Positions 12,915-22,273 of a stretch of DNA of 39,615 nt are shown here, piece after piece. The notes under the pieces are model-generated. The model worked only from the letters and a program-made list of their open reading frames with translations, was not told the origin of the DNA and did not search any database. Both the position numbers and the translations under genes were made by a program. This DNA is from Chloroflexota bacterium. Lineage in GTDB: Bacteria > Chloroflexota > Limnocylindria > Limnocylindrales > CSP1-4. Location of the stretch: contig PMLK01000078.1 of NCBI GenBank assembly GCA_003158875.1, positions 1,569 to 41,183 of the forward strand. Direction: 5' to 3'. Within the stretch, counting starts at the first letter, position 1; each line of letters begins with the position of its first letter.

Positions 12915-13604
12915 ATGAACGCCACGAGTTCCGAGACCACGTTCTTCGAGGCCGTGCGCAATGGCGACGACGCCGCCGTCGAAGCCGCGTTGGGCGCCGA
13001 TCGGAACTTGCTCCACGCTCGTGCCGGCGACACCCTCTCCCCGGTGCTGGTAGCCGCGTTCGGCGGCCACCTCAAACTGGCGTCACGCCTGGCGGTACTG
13101 GCAGCCGAGACCGAGAGCGGCCTCGACGTGTTCGATGCCGCGACAACCGGCCACGTCGCTGCCGTGCGGGCCATGCTGACCGATAAGCGCGCCTCAGTGG
13201 ACGACGGCGGGCCCGAAGGCTACACCGCCCTTCATCTCTCGGCGGCATTCGGTCAACTGGAGATGGCCCGCATGCTGCTCGGCAGAGGCGCCGATCCCAA
13301 CGCAGTGGCTCTCAACGCCGAACGCGTCACGCCGTTGCATTGCGCCGTGGCGGGCAAACACCGCGACATGGCCGGCCTGCTACTGGCATTGGGAGCGTCC
13401 GCCAACGCAATCCAGAAGGGCGGGCAGACGCCGCTCCACACTGCGGCTATCAACGGCGACGAAGCGATCGTCGACATGCTCCTGCTCCGGGGCGCCGACC
13501 CGACCAGGGCCACCGACGCCGGTAAGACGGCGATCGATCTCGCCAACGAGCACGGCCACGCGGCCCTGGCCAACGTAATGCGCCAGGCGGCCACGAACCG
13601 CTAG
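12915..13604 (+). CDS. Ankyrin repeat protein
   Basis: This 229-residue protein is made almost wholly of ankyrin-type helix-loop-helix repeats. Clear repeats include GYTALHLSAAFGQLEMARMLLGRGADPN, TPLHCAVAGKHRDMAGLLLALGASAN and TPLHTAAINGDEAIVDMLLLRGADPT, with weaker repeats in the N-terminal half. Ankyrin proteins mediate protein-protein contacts; no catalytic domain or signal peptide is present, so it is cytoplasmic. GAGGAAGAG precedes the ATG, and the gene lies 10 bp after the aminotransferase. Its stop overlaps the stop of the convergent DUF885 gene by the shared CTAG (13601-13604). Confidence 0.88.
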   Translation: MNATSSETTFFEAVRNGDDAAVEAALGADRNLLHARAGDTLSPVLVAAFGGHLKLASRLAVLAAETESGLDVFDAATTGHVAAVRAMLTDKRASVDDGGPEGYTALHLSAAFGQLEMARMLLGRGADPNAVALNAERVTPLHCAVAGKHRDMAGLLLALGASANAIQKGGQTPLHTAAINGDEAIVDMLLLRGADPTRATDAGKTAIDLANEHGHAALANVMRQAATNR

Positions 13605-15319
13605 CGGGCGAATCCGAGCCAGCCCGGCAGCTCCTTGGCCAGAGTGGCCAGCGGTAGTGTCCCGTGGCCCAGCACGGCATCATGGAAGGCCCGGATGTCG
13701 AACCTCGGCCCAAGGACCTGCGAGGCTTCGGTGCGCAGTCGCGTGATCTCTCGCTGACCGGTCTTGTAGCACAACGCTTGGGCCGGCAGGGCGATATAGC
13801 GGTCCGTCTCGATGCTCGATTCGGTGTCCGACTGGCCTGCCTCGAGCAACTGCTCGACCGATGTCCGCCGATGCCAGCCGAAGGCATGGATGCCGGTGTC
13901 GACTATCAGGCGTGCGGCCCGGTGGGCCTGTCCATCCAGCATGCCGAACCGCTCCGCCTCGTTCAGATAGAGCCCCATCTCGTCGGCGAGTCGCTCCGCG
14001 TAGAGGCCCCAACCCTCGACATACGCCATGCCGGCCATTCGAGAACCGAGGAGCCGGAAGGTATTGAGACTCGGATGTTCGGTCTGAAGCGCAATCTGGA
14101 AGTGGTGGCCTGGAACCGCCTCGTGGAAGCTCATGCTGGCCAGCGCGACGTAGCTCCGGCTCGGCAGGTCGAACGTGTTCACGTAGTAGACGCCCGCCCG
14201 GCTTCCGTCGACCGCTGGGGAATAGTAGTAAGCGGCCGGAGCGTCCGCTTCCTTGAACGGCTCCACGGGCCGAACTTCGCACGCGGCTCGCGGCAGCGAA
14301 CCGAAGTAATCCGGAGCGCAGGCCAGAGCTCGCTCGATCTGGCCACGGGCGCGATCCAGCAACTCTTCGGTCGACTGCGGGATGGTCGCGGGGTTGGACC
14401 GCAACCGTGCCCGAGCCGCCCGCAGATCTTCGCCCAGGCCCAATCGGCGCGTGATGACGCGCTGCTCGTCCTGGATCGAGGCCAGCTCCTCGCGGCCGAT
14501 GCGGTGGAGTTCGGCGGCCTCGATGTCGAGTGATGTCCAGGCCCGGATCTGGGTCTTGTAGAGCTCCTCCCCGTGCGGGGCCGAGAGAAGCCCGGGCTCC
14601 TGGCGAGAAGCGTTCCTGTACTCACCCAGCAGCGATTCGAGGAAGGCGCGATCCGCGGGTCGCACGTACCTGGCGATGGCCTCGACGACTCGATCGCGAT
14701 CGGACGGTTTGGGCAGCTTCAGAGATTCCAGGATCGGGGATTGATCGTCCGGAATCGCCAGAAGGCGCTCCAGCTGGCTGATGACCCGCTCGGTGACAAT
14801 GCGGGCGGCGGTGACACCACTCGCCAGACCGTCGCGCACGGTATCGATGTTGGCGGCCATGAAGCGCGGGTAGTCGGCCAGGCGGGCCATGAAGGCTTCG
14901 AACTGCTCGGGCTTTTCGGTCCGCTGGAAGACTGCCAGCAAAGGCAGGATCGTTTGAGGGCCATCCATCTGGTCCACAACCTTGAGCCGGTCGAAGCGCT
15001 GGCCCAGCTGCTCCAGTTCGATGTCGCAGACGACCCGCACGATGTCGAGGGTGATCCGCTCTTCCGTCGGCAGGCCCGACGTCTCGGCGGCCTGGGCTTC
15101 GATCGCGTCGGCTTCGGCAAGCGTCTGGCGATACAGCCGGGCGGCCTTCTCGCGGCCGGCCGGACCCGGGTCGTCGAGCCGATCCGCTCCCTGCTCGTAG
15201 CCGAGCATCGTGGCGCTGATCGGGGAAAGATCCAGGATGCCGTTCCAGAAGCGTTCCGACAGCGCGTTGACCGCGTCGGCCGCGCTCGGGACGTTACCAA
15301 CGAGATTGGTCTCGGCCAC
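13601..15319 (-). CDS. DUF885 family protein, predicted zinc metallopeptidase
   Basis: This 572-residue protein fits DUF885 in length and pattern. The putative zinc site is HEAVPGHH at residues 399-406, preceded by SYVALASMSF and followed by MAYVEGWGLYAERLADEMG (the third ligand Glu region) and later GFGWHR-like FGWHRRTSVEQLLE. It lacks a signal peptide, so it is probably cytoplasmic, unlike some lipoprotein members. GTG 15319 has GGAGG at 5-nt spacing. It lies downstream of the 957-residue gene on the same strand with a gap of about 105 bp. The peptide substrate is unknown. Confidence 0.88.
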   Translation of the reverse strand: MAETNLVGNVPSAADAVNALSERFWNGILDLSPISATMLGYEQGADRLDDPGPAGREKAARLYRQTLAEADAIEAQAAETSGLPTEERITLDIVRVVCDIELEQLGQRFDRLKVVDQMDGPQTILPLLAVFQRTEKPEQFEAFMARLADYPRFMAANIDTVRDGLASGVTAARIVTERVISQLERLLAIPDDQSPILESLKLPKPSDRDRVVEAIARYVRPADRAFLESLLGEYRNASRQEPGLLSAPHGEELYKTQIRAWTSLDIEAAELHRIGREELASIQDEQRVITRRLGLGEDLRAARARLRSNPATIPQSTEELLDRARGQIERALACAPDYFGSLPRAACEVRPVEPFKEADAPAAYYYSPAVDGSRAGVYYVNTFDLPSRSYVALASMSFHEAVPGHHFQIALQTEHPSLNTFRLLGSRMAGMAYVEGWGLYAERLADEMGLYLNEAERFGMLDGQAHRAARLIVDTGIHAFGWHRRTSVEQLLEAGQSDTESSIETDRYIALPAQALCYKTGQREITRLRTEASQVLGPRFDIRAFHDAVLGHGTLPLATLAKELPGWLGFAR

Positions 15320-15425: not shown

Positions 15426-18299
15426 TCAGGCCCCGAAGAGCGGCAGTTGCTCGCCGACGGTGTCCGCCACCGCGTCCAGGCCGAGATACGGCTCCAGTGC
15501 CGCAAGCGTCGGCTCCGATCTGGCGGCGAACTCGGCCAGGTGGTTCCACTTGATGAAGTGCCAGTTGCGCTCCTCGACCGAGCGGCGCAACAGTGGCGAG
15601 CGGGCCAGTTTGAGTTTGACCAACTCCGCTCGTTCGGGGGGAATGACTAGGAACCGGACGACCTTGTCATCGATCGGATAACGGGCGTGATGAGCCAGAA
15701 TCGGGTCGCTGAGCATCGCGGTCCACTCGACTTCGAAGAGGAAGCTGGCCTTGCGCCGCACGTACCAGGCGCAGTCGACCCGCTCCAGCTCGCCGTCGGG
15801 AGCCCACGTGATGAGCGGCAGATGCACCTCGCGCTCGGCTTCGTCCAGCAGCGTTCCCAATGGCCGGCCATCGACGCGCCTGCTCTGCTGGCGCCTGCCG
15901 ATCCAGACCTTCATGCCGAGGCGGTGGCCCAATCCGGCCAGAATGGCGATGATTCGATCGTGCTCGGCCGTTCTTGCTTCGAGCTGATCGAAGCCGATCA
16001 CCGCGTCGGGAGTGCTGGCGGGACCCCGATAGCTCGCCAGGCAGGCCTCGACAAGCGTCCGATCGGGAGCGTCGCGGCCCTTGAACATGGCCGACGCCCG
16101 CTCGATCGCAGCGCGTTCGCTGAGGTGGCCACCCGACGAGAGCAGTGAGAAGATGCCCCACTCCACCCGATCGGCGAGCGGCTGCTGGGCCGCGCCGCGA
16201 TCCTCGTCCGAGGCCAGCCAGTAGTGTCCGGGCTCGATCTGGCGGATGCGCCGGTTGTTTGGCCGATCCAGCTCGGCGTGGACGATCTCGGCGAGCTGAG
16301 CGACCGGATCGTCGTATGAGGCTTCGTCTGCGCCGAGCACACCGGGCGTTGGAACGGGCCTGGCCGATACAGCGGTGTCCGTCTGAGACGCCGGCCCGAC
16401 CGGCGCACCGGGCCCGACGCCGAAGGCATCCACCCATGCCGACCAGCCGTCCTTGGCCGCGGGCGGTCGCAGCACTCTGGCCAGCCGCGCCAGCTGGCCG
16501 CTGCCGTCGAGGCCCACCAGCACGTCCCCGAGGAGGTTGTCGAACGTGGTCGGCTCGCCTTTCGCCTTGAGCAACTCGACGGCCGCCTCGGTCGCCGCCT
16601 GGGCAGCCACGGTCGTGCGGAATGGGCCCTCGTCCAGCCTCTCCGGTGCTGCAAACACGCCCCGACCGCGGATCGTTCCGGGGTCGCCGGCTCCGCCCTG
16701 AACCGGCGGCAGCGGCCGGTTGGCACGGGTCCGCGGGCCCGGAGCCAGCACGCCGGTGCCGGGCACGAAGACCGCAATCGCGGAGCTGTCATCGCCATCC
16801 CGATGAAGACGGGCCTCGACCAACCGGCATCCTGCCGCGGCCCCTCCGAGCGCGGCGGCGATGAGGGTCGCGGGGTGATCGTCGTCGAGGAGCACAACCG
16901 CCCGGCCGTTTTGGGATAGCGCCGGCGTGGCGATGGCCAGAGTTCGCCCCACGGAGCGAGCCAGATCCAGCGACTCCTCCGTGGCAGTCGGTTTGACGGG
17001 CGACTGGAAGAGGGCGCCGTACGGCAAGAGCGATACCGCTGCTGGCCCGAATATCCAGCCCGTGCCCTGGTACGAAGCCGCGAGTCGCTCCGGTGTCCAG
17101 CGCAGCGGCGCCTGGCTGAGCAGGAGCCGGACCCTCGAGGGCGTGCCGGAATGGGCCATGCGATCGCCGTGCAAGCCCAGCCGCCGCAGCGAACCGGGCG
17201 TTGTCTCGCTCACAGTCACGTTGGCGGTGGTGGATTCCAGCGCTTCCATGTCCCCTCCGAGGCGGGCCATGGCGGATCGGGGCGTGCCGGACTCGAGCTT
17301 GTGGACGAAATCGTTGAGCAGTTCGATTCCGGACTCGAACGCCAGCCAGGGATTGACCTCGCGCCACTCGTCGGCGCTGGGGACGCTCAAGACGCCGTTC
17401 GAAATGCGCGGCCCGGCCGGCTTGCCGCGCGAAACGTTGAGCCGGCTGGCGATGGTTACCGCATGCAGCAGGGCCAGCCTCAGGCCTGCCGTTACGGCAC
17501 CGACTCGATCCTCGGCGTCGATACGGGTCAGGATCGCATTCAAGCCGAGCAGCTGGCGGGCGGTATGGAGATCGATCAGCTGGTCCACGAGCGGATGCGT
17601 CGGCCGCGGCGCCGGGAAGCGCCGGCGCATCGCCTCTCGCACTTCGCCGCTGACCGGGACGGACTCGGCAAGCTTGACGTCGCCCAGACTGGGATCCGCC
17701 GAGCGAGTCTCCATACCGCCGCTGTCGACGGAGCAATGGGCGCAGCGATATTCACGCGACAGCGGCCGCAGCAGTTCGTCGGGGCCGGTGCGCAGGTCTG
17801 GCAAGGTCGCGCTGCCGGGATTCGCCGGTCTGCGGCGCTCTCTGGTTGCCGATTTGGCGACGGTAGCGGATGCCGTCGCTACCGGCCGCCAGACCATGGC
17901 ATCGAGTGTGACCGGCCGGCCGCAGGTCGGGCAGGCGCTGGCGTAAAGCGCCTCGATCGTGCGCCGAATCGTCGAGCCGGAGAACGGGCCGTTGGCGAGG
18001 GCCGTGACGGCGGATTCGACCTGGCGCAGGTCCGGGGGCCGCAGAACGACATCGGCGAGGAGCCGGGTCAGCGGCCAGGTCTCGTAGTCGGCGGCACGAC
18101 GCTGTTCGGCGATCGCGGCGCGGGCAACCCAGCCGCCACGGCCGCAGAGATCCAGGATTACATCGCCGGGCTTGGTCCAGGCCTCGATCGCAGCCACGAG
18201 CTCGGCGGCGGCGGCGGGCGGAGCGAGGCGCTCGAAAGCGGGCAGCGACGGAATGCTGGCGAGCCCCGGCTCGGGGTTAGTGGCTTCGCGCCCGACCAT
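15426..18299 (-). CDS. Large protein: degenerate DNA-methyltransferase-like region, zinc-ribbon cysteines, possible nuclease-like C-terminus
   Basis: This 957-residue protein has no family I can name. Residues 20-90 resemble the start of SAM-dependent DNA methylases: an amphipathic helix, then KPGDVILDLCGRGG (motif I, where enzymes have DPFxGxG), then a second strand with Glu at 73. Paired cysteines CPTC (123-126) and CAHC (186-189) could bind zinc. No NPPY/DPPY catalytic motif is visible; the expected strand reads RLLLSQAPLRW (391-401). Residues 665-760 look like a winged-helix region. The C-terminus has VDCAWYV (841-847) and FLFEVEWT (853-860), a D...ExE layout like PD-(D/E)xK nucleases but without the usual Lys. 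No SD; CACAAT lies six bases upstream. Confidence 0.8.
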   Translation of the reverse strand: MVGREATNPEPGLASIPSLPAFERLAPPAAAAELVAAIEAWTKPGDVILDLCGRGGWVARAAIAEQRRAADYETWPLTRLLADVVLRPPDLRQVESAVTALANGPFSGSTIRRTIEALYASACPTCGRPVTLDAMVWRPVATASATVAKSATRERRRPANPGSATLPDLRTGPDELLRPLSREYRCAHCSVDSGGMETRSADPSLGDVKLAESVPVSGEVREAMRRRFPAPRPTHPLVDQLIDLHTARQLLGLNAILTRIDAEDRVGAVTAGLRLALLHAVTIASRLNVSRGKPAGPRISNGVLSVPSADEWREVNPWLAFESGIELLNDFVHKLESGTPRSAMARLGGDMEALESTTANVTVSETTPGSLRRLGLHGDRMAHSGTPSRVRLLLSQAPLRWTPERLAASYQGTGWIFGPAAVSLLPYGALFQSPVKPTATEESLDLARSVGRTLAIATPALSQNGRAVVLLDDDHPATLIAAALGGAAAGCRLVEARLHRDGDDSSAIAVFVPGTGVLAPGPRTRANRPLPPVQGGAGDPGTIRGRGVFAAPERLDEGPFRTTVAAQAATEAAVELLKAKGEPTTFDNLLGDVLVGLDGSGQLARLARVLRPPAAKDGWSAWVDAFGVGPGAPVGPASQTDTAVSARPVPTPGVLGADEASYDDPVAQLAEIVHAELDRPNNRRIRQIEPGHYWLASDEDRGAAQQPLADRVEWGIFSLLSSGGHLSERAAIERASAMFKGRDAPDRTLVEACLASYRGPASTPDAVIGFDQLEARTAEHDRIIAILAGLGHRLGMKVWIGRRQQSRRVDGRPLGTLLDEAEREVHLPLITWAPDGELERVDCAWYVRRKASFLFEVEWTAMLSDPILAHHARYPIDDKVVRFLVIPPERAELVKLKLARSPLLRRSVEERNWHFIKWNHLAEFAARSEPTLAALEPYLGLDAVADTVGEQLPLFGA

Positions 18300-18363: not shown

Positions 18364-19215
18364 TTACGGCTCCTCGATCTCGTCGGTTTCCTCTTCGAAG
18401 GCTTCCTCGCCGGTGACTTCGGCCGGCAGGACGCGATCGAGGTCTTCGATCTCGTCGTCTTCCTCGTCATCCTCGAGGTCATCCTCAATGAACTCCTCCT
18501 CGCGCAGAAGCGTGCCCTTGGTGTAAGGGCGGAGGTCCGAGGATCGAGCTGCGGTCGGGAAGCTGACCTTGCCGTAGTTGCGCGGGTCCTGGAAGACCTC
18601 ACGAATGACGATACGTACGTCGCGGTCACCAAGCGAGGTGATTCCGGCCGAGTACATGTTGCCGTCGGCGAGAAGCTTCAGCAGACGCGCGGCTACTCGC
18701 GGCTCCACTATGCCGATGCGGGTCCCGTTGGCCGACGCGAAGAGCCGGTTGCCTTCGGGAAGGAGCTCGACTGCATCGCCCGGGTTCACGTGAGCCAGGG
18801 CCCGCGGCGCGGCCAGATCCGTGAGCATCGCGAAGCCGGTCTTGCCCGTCTCCTCGACGAAGATGGCAACGGAGGCTTTGTCGGCCTTTTCCGGCGCGGC
18901 GGTCTTGTCGCCGGCCTCGCTCATGAGGACACGCAGCCGCTCGATGTTGCGCTCCGCGATTCGGTTCGTGGGATCCAGGGCCAGGGCGACCTGGTAGTGC
19001 TCGCGAGCCTCGCCGAGCTCGCCTGTCTCCCAGAGCGCCTTGGCGAGACGATTTTCAGTTTCAGCGTCGGGACCGAGTTCCAACATCTTGCGGTTGGTCT
19101 CGACGGCCTCGGCCCAGGAACCGGCGGCAGCCAGATTGATGGCCTGCTCGGCAAGCTGGCGCTTGATCCGGACGGTGTTGCCGCCGGCTGTCTTTTCGAT
19201 CTCGGGGAAAGCCAA
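18364..19215 (-). CDS. TPR protein with uncharacterised beta domain and acidic tail
   Basis: This 283-residue protein has two or three TPR-like helical pairs (about residues 12-85, including WAEAVETNRKMLELGPDAETENRLAKALWETG written here as landmarks WAEAVETNRKMLELGP and AREHYQVALALDP). A beta-rich domain follows (about 105-215; PGDAVELLPEGNRLF, IGIVEPRVAARLLKL, DRDVRIVIREVFQDP). The tail is strongly acidic, with runs of Glu and Asp (about 235-283). The middle domain recalls HIRAN-like folds, but I cannot prove it. TTG 19215 has AAGGA at about 9-nt spacing; no ATG is available before the homologous region. It lies immediately upstream of the 957-residue gene on the same strand. Confidence 0.8.
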   Translation of the reverse strand: MAFPEIEKTAGGNTVRIKRQLAEQAINLAAAGSWAEAVETNRKMLELGPDAETENRLAKALWETGELGEAREHYQVALALDPTNRIAERNIERLRVLMSEAGDKTAAPEKADKASVAIFVEETGKTGFAMLTDLAAPRALAHVNPGDAVELLPEGNRLFASANGTRIGIVEPRVAARLLKLLADGNMYSAGITSLGDRDVRIVIREVFQDPRNYGKVSFPTAARSSDLRPYTKGTLLREEEFIEDDLEDDEEDDEIEDLDRVLPAEVTGEEAFEEETDEIEEP

Positions 19216-19403
19216 GTAAGGAATTCCTTTCGTCAGCTCCGTGGAGCTGCTGGAGCGGCGAAGCGGCAGTTGGGGCCGCCCCGCGAAAAGCATGCCAGTT
19301 TCGACGGCACTCGATCCGTCAGAGCAATTCTATCGGGCAAGCGGGCCGCTTGCCATCGCCAGCTGCGCCGGAGCACCGGGTCGGGTCGACGGCGCGGCCG
19401 GCG

Positions 19404-20398: not shown

Positions 20399-22273
20399 CT
20401 AAGCCATCCCGGAACGAGTGCGATCGGGCGCTCCGGAGACCCACTCGAGCAGCTCCGAGCGAGATCTGGTGTTGATGACAACGTCCGGTGTGAGCCACGC
20501 TCGACGGGCCATCGCCGTACCCCAGCGGAGATTGTCCAGCTCCTCCGTTCTGTGGGCGTCGGAGTCGATGGCGAACACGCAGCCGAATTCGGCCGCCCGC
20601 CGAGCTCGCACGTCCGAAAGGTCGAGGCGCTCATCCGAGCCGTTGAGTTCGAGTGCCGTTCCGGTCCGGGCCGCGGCCTCGAAGACCTCGTCCCACTCCA
20701 GGTCAAGGTCGTCACGAGAACCAATGTAGCGCCCTGCCGGGTGGGCGATTATGTCCACGTTAGGGTTGCGAATGGCTGCCAGGGTGCGAGCAGTCAGTTG
20801 TTCGCGCGTCTGCCGCCGGGCAACGTGCACGGAAGCAACAACCAGGTCGTAGCGCTCCAGGACGTCGTCGGGGTAGTCCAGAGTCGCGTCGGCCCGGACT
20901 TCCAACTCGCAGCCGTGGAGCAGCCGAAATCCTTCGGATGAGCTGCCGGCCGGCACCGTCCCGCCCTGCTCCTCGTCCGCGAAGGGACGATTCAACGCGG
21001 CGACGATCCCACGTTGCGTCTCGACCCTTTCCAGCGTAAGTCCATGGGCAATCGCGAGGCTTTGAGTGTGGTCCGTGAGAACCAGGTAGGAGTAGCCGCG
21101 CCGCCGCGCCGCCGCGGCCATCTGCTCGATCGTATGGATGCCGTCGGACCAGTCGGAGTGGCTATGGCAGTCGCCGCGCAAGTCGCCGCGCGTCACGAGC
21201 CGGGGCAGAGTACCCGCGAGCCCGGCCTCCACTTCGCCGCGGTCCTCGCGTAACTCCGGCTCTATGAATGGCAGCCTCAGAAACCCGTAGGCCGCTTCTT
21301 CGGTCGGGAAGGTCCGCAGCTCGGCAGCCTCGCCGGGCTCGTGGGCCGCGGCATCGGCCGCAGTATCGGCCGCGTTATCGGCCGCGTCGAGCTTGAGGAA
21401 ACCCTTCTCCGACAGGCTCCAGCCCATGTCGCGAGCCATGCCTCGCAGGCGGACGTTGTGCTCCTTTGAGCCGGTGAAGTGGATCAGGTAAGTGCCGGCT
21501 TCGCCCGGCGGCATGATCATCAGATCCACCTGAGGGCCGTTGAGGAGCCGCACGGCAGCCTTGCGAGGCCCCCTGGCAATCACGGACTCGACGGCCGGCA
21601 ACGACGTGAACCGCTCCACGAGCGCGTTCGGCTGGTCGGTCTCGGCCAGCAGGTCCAGGTCGCCGACGGTCTCGCGGCGCCGTCTGAACGACCCCGCCGG
21701 CTGTATCGAGCGCATGCCCGGCACATCTTCCAGAACGGCGATCAGGGCATCCACGATGGCCTCGGCCTGGCCCAATCGCATCCGATCATGGCGCGACTCC
21801 ATCGCCGCCATGCCGGCCAGAACGGCCTTCTCGGTCTTCTCCGACATGCCCTTGAGCCCGCGCAGCAGCCCCGACTCGGCGGCTCGCTTCAGGTCCTCGA
21901 GCGAATCGACGCCCAGCTCGGCGTGGAGCTGCTTGACCGTCCGGGGCCCGACGCTCGGGATTCCGAGGAGCGCGACCAGGCCCGGCGGAACCTCCACACG
22001 TAATCGCTCGTAGAACTCCATCCTGCCGGTCTGAGCGAGTTCCACGATCTTGGCCGCGATCGCATCGCCCACGCCGGCGATATGCGGCGGCGTTCCGGAG
22101 ACGTAGGCTCTGGCGACTTCGACCGGAGAATGGGCAATCGCGTCGGCCGCGCGGTGATAGGCCACGGTCTTGAAGACCACCTCGCCCTTGATCTCAAGCA
22201 TGTCGCCGATCTCATGAAAGACACGGGCCAGTTCGGCGTTGGTTGGAACCGTGGTCGGGGCCGGATCGTTCAT
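20399..22273 (-). CDS. polX: DNA polymerase X family with PHP phosphoesterase domain
   Basis: This 624-residue protein combines a PolX polymerase (about 1-340) and a PHP exonuclease-type domain (about 360-610), acting in gap-filling DNA repair. The polymerase part has helix-hairpin-helix segments (HIAGVGDAIAAKIVELA; LGIPSVGPRTVKQLHAELG). Catalytic carboxylates are in GSFRRRRETVGDLDLL and VDLMIM. The PHP part has metal-site motifs DCHSHSDWSDG, LTDHTQ, HGCELEV, ASVH, IAHPAGR and DSDAH, all present. An Ala/Asp-rich linker between the domains is encoded by a 12-bp tandem repeat, which makes it somewhat longer than the usual 570-580. No Shine-Dalgarno; TACCAT lies 7 nt before the ATG. Confidence 0.95.
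   Translation of the reverse strand: MNDPAPTTVPTNAELARVFHEIGDMLEIKGEVVFKTVAYHRAADAIAHSPVEVARAYVSGTPPHIAGVGDAIAAKIVELAQTGRMEFYERLRVEVPPGLVALLGIPSVGPRTVKQLHAELGVDSLEDLKRAAESGLLRGLKGMSEKTEKAVLAGMAAMESRHDRMRLGQAEAIVDALIAVLEDVPGMRSIQPAGSFRRRRETVGDLDLLAETDQPNALVERFTSLPAVESVIARGPRKAAVRLLNGPQVDLMIMPPGEAGTYLIHFTGSKEHNVRLRGMARDMGWSLSEKGFLKLDAADNAADTAADAAAHEPGEAAELRTFPTEEAAYGFLRLPFIEPELREDRGEVEAGLAGTLPRLVTRGDLRGDCHSHSDWSDGIHTIEQMAAAARRRGYSYLVLTDHTQSLAIAHGLTLERVETQRGIVAALNRPFADEEQGGTVPAGSSSEGFRLLHGCELEVRADATLDYPDDVLERYDLVVASVHVARRQTREQLTARTLAAIRNPNVDIIAHPAGRYIGSRDDLDLEWDEVFEAAARTGTALELNGSDERLDLSDVRARRAAEFGCVFAIDSDAHRTEELDNLRWGTAMARRAWLTPDVVINTRSRSELLEWVSGAPDRTRSGMA
21344..21391. repeat. 12-bp tandem repeat inside polX
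   Basis: Four units begin with GGCCGC; the first three end in ATC (GGCCGCGGCATC, GGCCGCAGTATC, GGCCGCGTTATC). They encode the AADxAADTAAD-type linker between the polymerase and PHP domains. The length keeps the frame, so repeat-number change would only alter linker length. Confidence 0.75.

Follow-up and report, generated by a model that had tools for sequence, protein, structure and literature searches.

Our analysis identified the 957-aa protein encoded at positions 15426-18299 on the minus strand of the window, i.e. the complete stretch of 39,615 nucleotides of DNA from a Limnocylindrales (Chloroflexota) MAG analyzed here, as a member of a conserved family rather than an isolated oddity. 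This family is vertically inherited in Chloroflexota and near-universal in the class Limnocylindria. The protein is predicted to combine a catalytically dead methyltransferase (MTase) carrying a zinc ribbon, a PD-(D/E)xK-like domain, and a tail for binding to the sliding clamp. We give about an even chance to the reading that it is a domesticated R-M-type fusion which is tethered to the clamp and processes replicating or repaired DNA of its own cell, acting as a nuclease in Limnocylindria. It has the look of a retired R-M enzyme kept for copying or repair of the cell's own DNA, since a clamp-type C-terminal tag is found in a lineage without the usual mismatch-repair genes.

The reading frame starts with ATG. 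At E<=1 it had no Pfam match, sequence searches of NCBIfam and the PDB likewise failed to assign it to a family, and PADLOC reported a weak type II MTase match at residues 38-102. Of the related genomes, 40 of 41 contained a homologue. An AlphaFold2 model, for which 51 homologues were supplied, reached a pLDDT of 88.1 and a pTM of 0.88 overall. The original prediction had proposed a 957-residue protein with an MTase-like N-terminus, a zinc ribbon, and a nuclease-like C-terminus. The open reading frame and every motif named were present in the translation at the residues given, and the three-part architecture was supported by the models, Foldseek, and hhalign. The outcome proposed as its refutation, neither a Rossmann MTase core nor a restriction-endonuclease-like fold, was looked for by structure prediction and Foldseek and did not occur.

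Methyltransferase-like module and zinc ribbon

Residues 20-520 approximately (16740-18242, minus strand) were modelled as an MTase-like core with strands at residues 47-53, 68-73, 390-396, 466-471, 492-497, and 507-512 and, between strands 2 and 4, an inserted zinc ribbon. In a Foldseek search of the full model against the PDB, mostly SAM methyltransferases were listed, none of them at E<=0.001 (best 0.047). This list, the order of strands and helices, and the alignment to the intact paralogue L171 identify a Rossmann-type MTase core. L171 (positions 573-2132 of contig C8) is a type II-like MTase of about 519 aa from the genome that also contains the window. Its MTase core can be aligned with the 957-aa protein, but it has canonical DPFSGRGTT and TSPPY motifs and contains neither zinc ribbon nor nuclease domain nor clamp tail. 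Profile matches of about 500 aa resembling L171 were found in most genomes of the nearest family, f1, and may represent a conserved orphan methylase.

Motif I had been described as altered. It indeed reads DLCGRGG at residues 50-56, followed by W57 (D50-W57 at 18129-18152, minus strand), in the translation and the family alignment, although the Gly-x-Gly (GRG) and the acidic residue after beta-2 (E73) are retained throughout f1. In the related family f3 motif I is canonical (DPWAGTGW). An alignment of 115 family members showed that the Gly-x-Gly survives in f1 and f3 and is lost in the forms of about 750 aa. Since f1 keeps GRG and E73 and f3 is canonical, the SAM pocket may survive in the Limnocylindria clade, and the module may still bind SAM there.

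An NPPY-type motif had been reported as not visible in the sequence. This proved correct, and the slot of the catalytic (D/N/S)PP(Y/F/W) motif can moreover be aligned. As L171 is intact, its TSPPY fixes the register, and SQAPL at residues 395-399 (17103-17117, minus strand) falls opposite SPPY. The full motif was absent from the 957-aa protein and from every listed member of the 115-member alignment, in which the slot varies freely (SQAPL, GQPPL, SVP-RP, RPPYP, GSPPP, DPP-RP). This free variation argues against a protein that still methylates DNA via a non-canonical catalytic motif, a reading we consider extremely improbable despite the GRG and E73 kept in the nearest family.

The family resembles COG1743/DUF1156-like and PglX-type MTases in the layout of motif I and DPPY with a long stretch between them. 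One relative (L058) gave a weak PglX match, and hhalign against DUF1156 proteins aligned 43 columns around motif I. However, the 957-aa protein has no DUF1156 domain match and has lost the catalytic motif, and the likeness is confined to the generic motif I region. Membership in DUF1156/COG1743 was rejected because there was no Pfam match, only 43 columns were aligned, and TDPPYYDN was not found. DUF1156 had no match in the window's own genome either.

The two CxxC pairs noticed in the original prediction turned out to be a constant feature of the family. C123-C126 (17922-17933) and C186-C189 (17733-17744), both on the minus strand, are invariant in 20 family members sharing 21-69% identity and in every complete sequence of the 115-member alignment. 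An N4/N6 methyltransferase that kept its zinc ribbon and lost its catalytic motif would probably serve as a DNA-recognition module.

Restriction-endonuclease-like C-terminal domain

For the nuclease half the Foldseek search with the full model was indecisive, and the C-terminal domain was therefore folded and searched alone. The separate model of residues 765-957 reached a pLDDT of 89 and a pTM of 0.85. Residues 770-945 approximately (15465-15992, minus strand) follow the order helix-strand-strand-strand-helix-strand of PD-(D/E)xK enzymes in the predicted structure, with D and (E/D)x(K/E) in place. The candidate metal ligand D842 (15774-15776, minus strand) starts core strand 2 and the candidate E-x-(K->E) motif E856-V-E858 (15726-15734, minus strand) ends core strand 3. 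Matches of this domain in the PDB were weak (best E 0.39), but by our own classification rich in PD-(D/E)xK proteins (Card1, YaeQ, MunI, MspJI, XPF, Mus81, SfsA). The named ones among its viral fold matches were largely restriction, MmcB, Mrr, and VRR-NUC proteins. With best E-values of only 0.047 for the full model and 0.39 for this domain, the fold assignments rest on the combined evidence.

Profile homology to proteins in which an EVE domain is fused to a restriction endonuclease domain is stronger evidence for the nuclease fold than the PDB matches. The C-terminal domain aligned by hhalign to that of the EVE fusions at 96.6% (E 5e-10) for the Limnocylindria set and at 95.7% for the whole family, and the EVE-fusion domain in turn hits a PADLOC model for type II restriction enzymes (REase_II) with an E-value of 3e-15. 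Both share the signature IDVxW...FEVE(H/W)T. In contrast to the EVE fusions, which are scattered, the 957-aa family is vertically fixed, carries the dead MTase-zinc ribbon module in the place of EVE, and adds the clamp tail. The EVE fusions themselves (L068-L073), with IDVxWL...FEVE(H/C)TTSI in their restriction-type domain, also have no Pfam family for this C-terminal domain.

The nuclease-like C-terminus had been proposed with D842...E856-x-E858 kept and the catalytic lysine lost. Residues and fold were confirmed and the lysine is indeed absent, as it is everywhere in the family; its position is taken by E858, likewise in the EVE-REase relatives. The loss, however, need not mean the loss of the active site. 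Active enzymes with E-x-E are known, BamHI being one, and all members with an intact domain have E858, so that the Lys-to-Glu change alone would not indicate a dead nuclease. In an alignment of the C-terminal domain from 51 diverse Limnocylindria proteins, D842, E856, and E858 were among the 23 invariant columns of 193. As the mean column identity was 60%, this points to selection on the site. A domain that keeps its metal-binding D...E-x-E triad in this clade would probably nick or cut DNA.

Conservation in the Chloroflexota and uneven decay

A profile search yielded full-length homologues in about 84 of 400 Chloroflexota genomes, as counted from the listed matches. The class Limnocylindria was represented in this sample by 55 genomes of the families f1-f5. 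Full-length or split copies were found in all genomes of f3-f5 and all but one of f1, and the small-genome family f2 has a diverged form. Searches of the phage and plasmid collections revealed no copy of the family.

Judged from the alignments, the catalytic sites do not decay together. The MTase slot has gone in all members, whereas the zinc ribbon is never lost. The families f1, f3, f7, f15, f23, and f33 retain the nuclease triad (E, D, or Q at position 856); it is partly kept in f4 and f5 (K or Q at 856), and lost in f2 and in the forms of about 750 aa from other Chloroflexota. In f2 (L065, L066, L067; genomes of about 1.1 Mb) the gene is kept while motif I, the nuclease site, and the tail are decayed, the latter to QLDL(A/S/G)S. 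This decay matches the DNA-repair loss reported for Limnocylindraceae.

The forms of about 750 aa keep the tail without the nuclease triad; hence the function shared by the whole family cannot require cutting. This counts against a clamp-client nuclease and gives room to the main sober alternative, a catalytically inert scaffold or DNA-binding regulator bound to the clamp, in which the function would rest on zinc ribbon and tail throughout the family. Such a protein would fit the invariant zinc ribbon, a tail mostly kept even where motif I and triad are gone, and the general absence of the catalytic lysine. It would not account for the invariance of D842, E856, and E858 in the 51 Limnocylindria proteins, and E-x-E sites can be active. 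We regard this alternative as doubtful. As the nuclease site is under selection in Limnocylindria, the clamp-directed nuclease is the preferred reading.

Putative clamp-binding tail and gene context

The protein ends in EQLPLFGA. The putative beta-clamp-binding motif Q951-L-P-L-F955 (15435-15449, minus strand) in this tail was overlooked in the original prediction, but is, besides the zinc ribbon, the most consistent feature of the family. A QxxLF-type peptide occurred in the last 25 residues of 103 of the 115 family members, compared to 2 of 412 background genes when their last 20 residues were considered. Residues 948-957 are disordered in the model (pLDDT <50). The bacterial clamp-binding consensus is QL[S/D]LF or QxxLF and also occurs at the PolC C-terminus (PMC12309361). 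Clamp clients encoded in the window's own genome follow the same motif grammar, namely DnaE (QTSLF), DinB (QMGMF), and an ImuB-like Y-family protein (QLSLF). On contig C85 of this genome, a second DnaE-type polymerase lies beside the QLSLF Y-family protein (L187, L188, L190), an arrangement resembling an ImuB-DnaE2 mutasome.

Nuclease-dead forms of the family still carry the tail (QMMMF, QLALF, QMKLF). In f2 and f4 it is degenerate, which together with the weak Foldseek E-values speaks against the domesticated clamp-client nuclease. Where present, the disordered QLxLF peptide would dock the protein on the clamp. The clamp would bring it to DNA that has just been replicated or gap-filled, where it may plausibly take part in repair alongside the neighboring PolX.

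This PolX-type DNA polymerase (20399-22273, minus strand; pol beta domains and PHP in Pfam) is a conserved upstream neighbor. Directly upstream of the 957-aa gene lies a gene assigned to TPR repeats by Pfam (18364-19293, minus strand), and downstream a Pfam DUF885 gene (13601-15319, minus strand). In a survey of 102 loci, with counts limited by contig ends, these genes were found on the same strand in 51 (PolX), 79 (TPR), and 66 (DUF885) cases. The TPR gene belongs to a family with a conserved C-terminal region which adjoins the 957-aa gene throughout the class and may be an operon partner.

The conserved order PolX-TPR-957-aa protein-DUF885 indicates that the gene is not defence-island cargo, and no mobile or defence neighbors were seen in the 102 loci. 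The earlier placement between a TPR protein and a DUF885 peptidase, outside a known defence island, thus holds across the survey and is extended by the repair polymerase. An active defence enzyme, either type IIG-like or a modification-dependent restriction enzyme, would be suggested by the R-M-like parts, by PADLOC MTase_II and PglX matches in relatives, and by the REase_II match in the EVE cousin. Vertical inheritance, near-universal presence in the class, a fixed syntenic chromosomal context, a missing catalytic MTase motif, and the lack of homologues in the phage and plasmid searches make this reading very unlikely.

Relation to mismatch repair

Class Limnocylindria appears to be without the known mismatch-repair (MMR) proteins MutS1, MutL, and full NucS. 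MutL (TIGR00585) did not reach the cut-off in any of 61 class genomes. Within the 400-genome sample it was found in none of the 55 genomes of the class, compared to 329 of 345 other Chloroflexota. MutS1 likewise did not exceed the cut-off in any of the 61 genomes, and the matches mostly covered the ATPase part, as in MutS2. No full-length NucS was detected in the class. NucS_C matches were short, mostly about 45 residues in frames of about 120-250 aa, and probably represent YraN-type small nucleases. One longer match, in a 267-aa frame (L173), does not have the appearance of a full-length NucS. The NucS model PF01939 had no match in the genome from which the window comes. A literature search for Limnocylindria and MutS yielded nothing, and a statement of class-wide MMR absence was not found in the papers searched. 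The one paper on Limnocylindria genomes that turned up deals with the loss of base-excision repair, has no mention of MutS or MutL, and proposes Limnocylindraceae as hypermutators (PMC13212565).

NucS is the closest functional analogue of the 957-aa protein. NucS/EndoMS is also a nuclease of the RecB/PD-(D/E)xK class with a C-terminal clamp-binding pentapeptide ending in LF, and is found in lineages without MutS-MutL, as is the 957-aa protein in Limnocylindria. The NucS nuclease is activated by the clamp through its C-terminal [E/K][L/Y][T/R]LF motif (PMC8228993). In contrast to NucS, the protein has a dead MTase and zinc ribbon architecture, a length of 957 aa, and an E-x-E site, and its family coexists with MutL in some lineages. 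As no NucS model matched, membership in NucS was rejected.

The protein could be a NucS-like non-canonical MMR endonuclease which, tethered to the clamp, recognizes and cuts at mismatches and replaces MutS-MutL in Limnocylindria. The missing MMR genes, clamp activation of NucS, and the PolX neighbor fit this reading, and the authors of the NucS study left room for further, as yet undiscovered MMR pathways (PMC5290159). We nevertheless consider it unlikely, since Limnocylindria may simply be without MMR, as the proposed hypermutators suggest, and genomes of f7, f15, f23, and f33 carry both MutL and the intact-triad form, whereas this form is not consistently present in MutL-lacking genomes outside the class. 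A strict replacement of MutL, tested across the phylum, fitted only partly: the class is without MutL, yet the intact triad occurs in MutL-containing families. Furthermore, the MMR absence is one class-level event, so its correlation with the family has no replication. That a retired R-M enzyme gave rise to a third, independent bacterial endonuclease for mismatch repair (or replication errors), activated by the clamp, is correspondingly improbable.

The combination of a dead methylase, a zinc ribbon, a restriction-type nuclease, and a clamp tag in one unannotated protein is found almost throughout an entire bacterial class. Under the preferred reading of a domesticated, clamp-tethered nuclease, it would clearly exemplify the conversion of an R-M-like enzyme into a genome-maintenance factor. 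As the class is without MutS1, MutL, and full NucS, the protein provides a concrete, testable candidate for the MMR pathways yet to be discovered.
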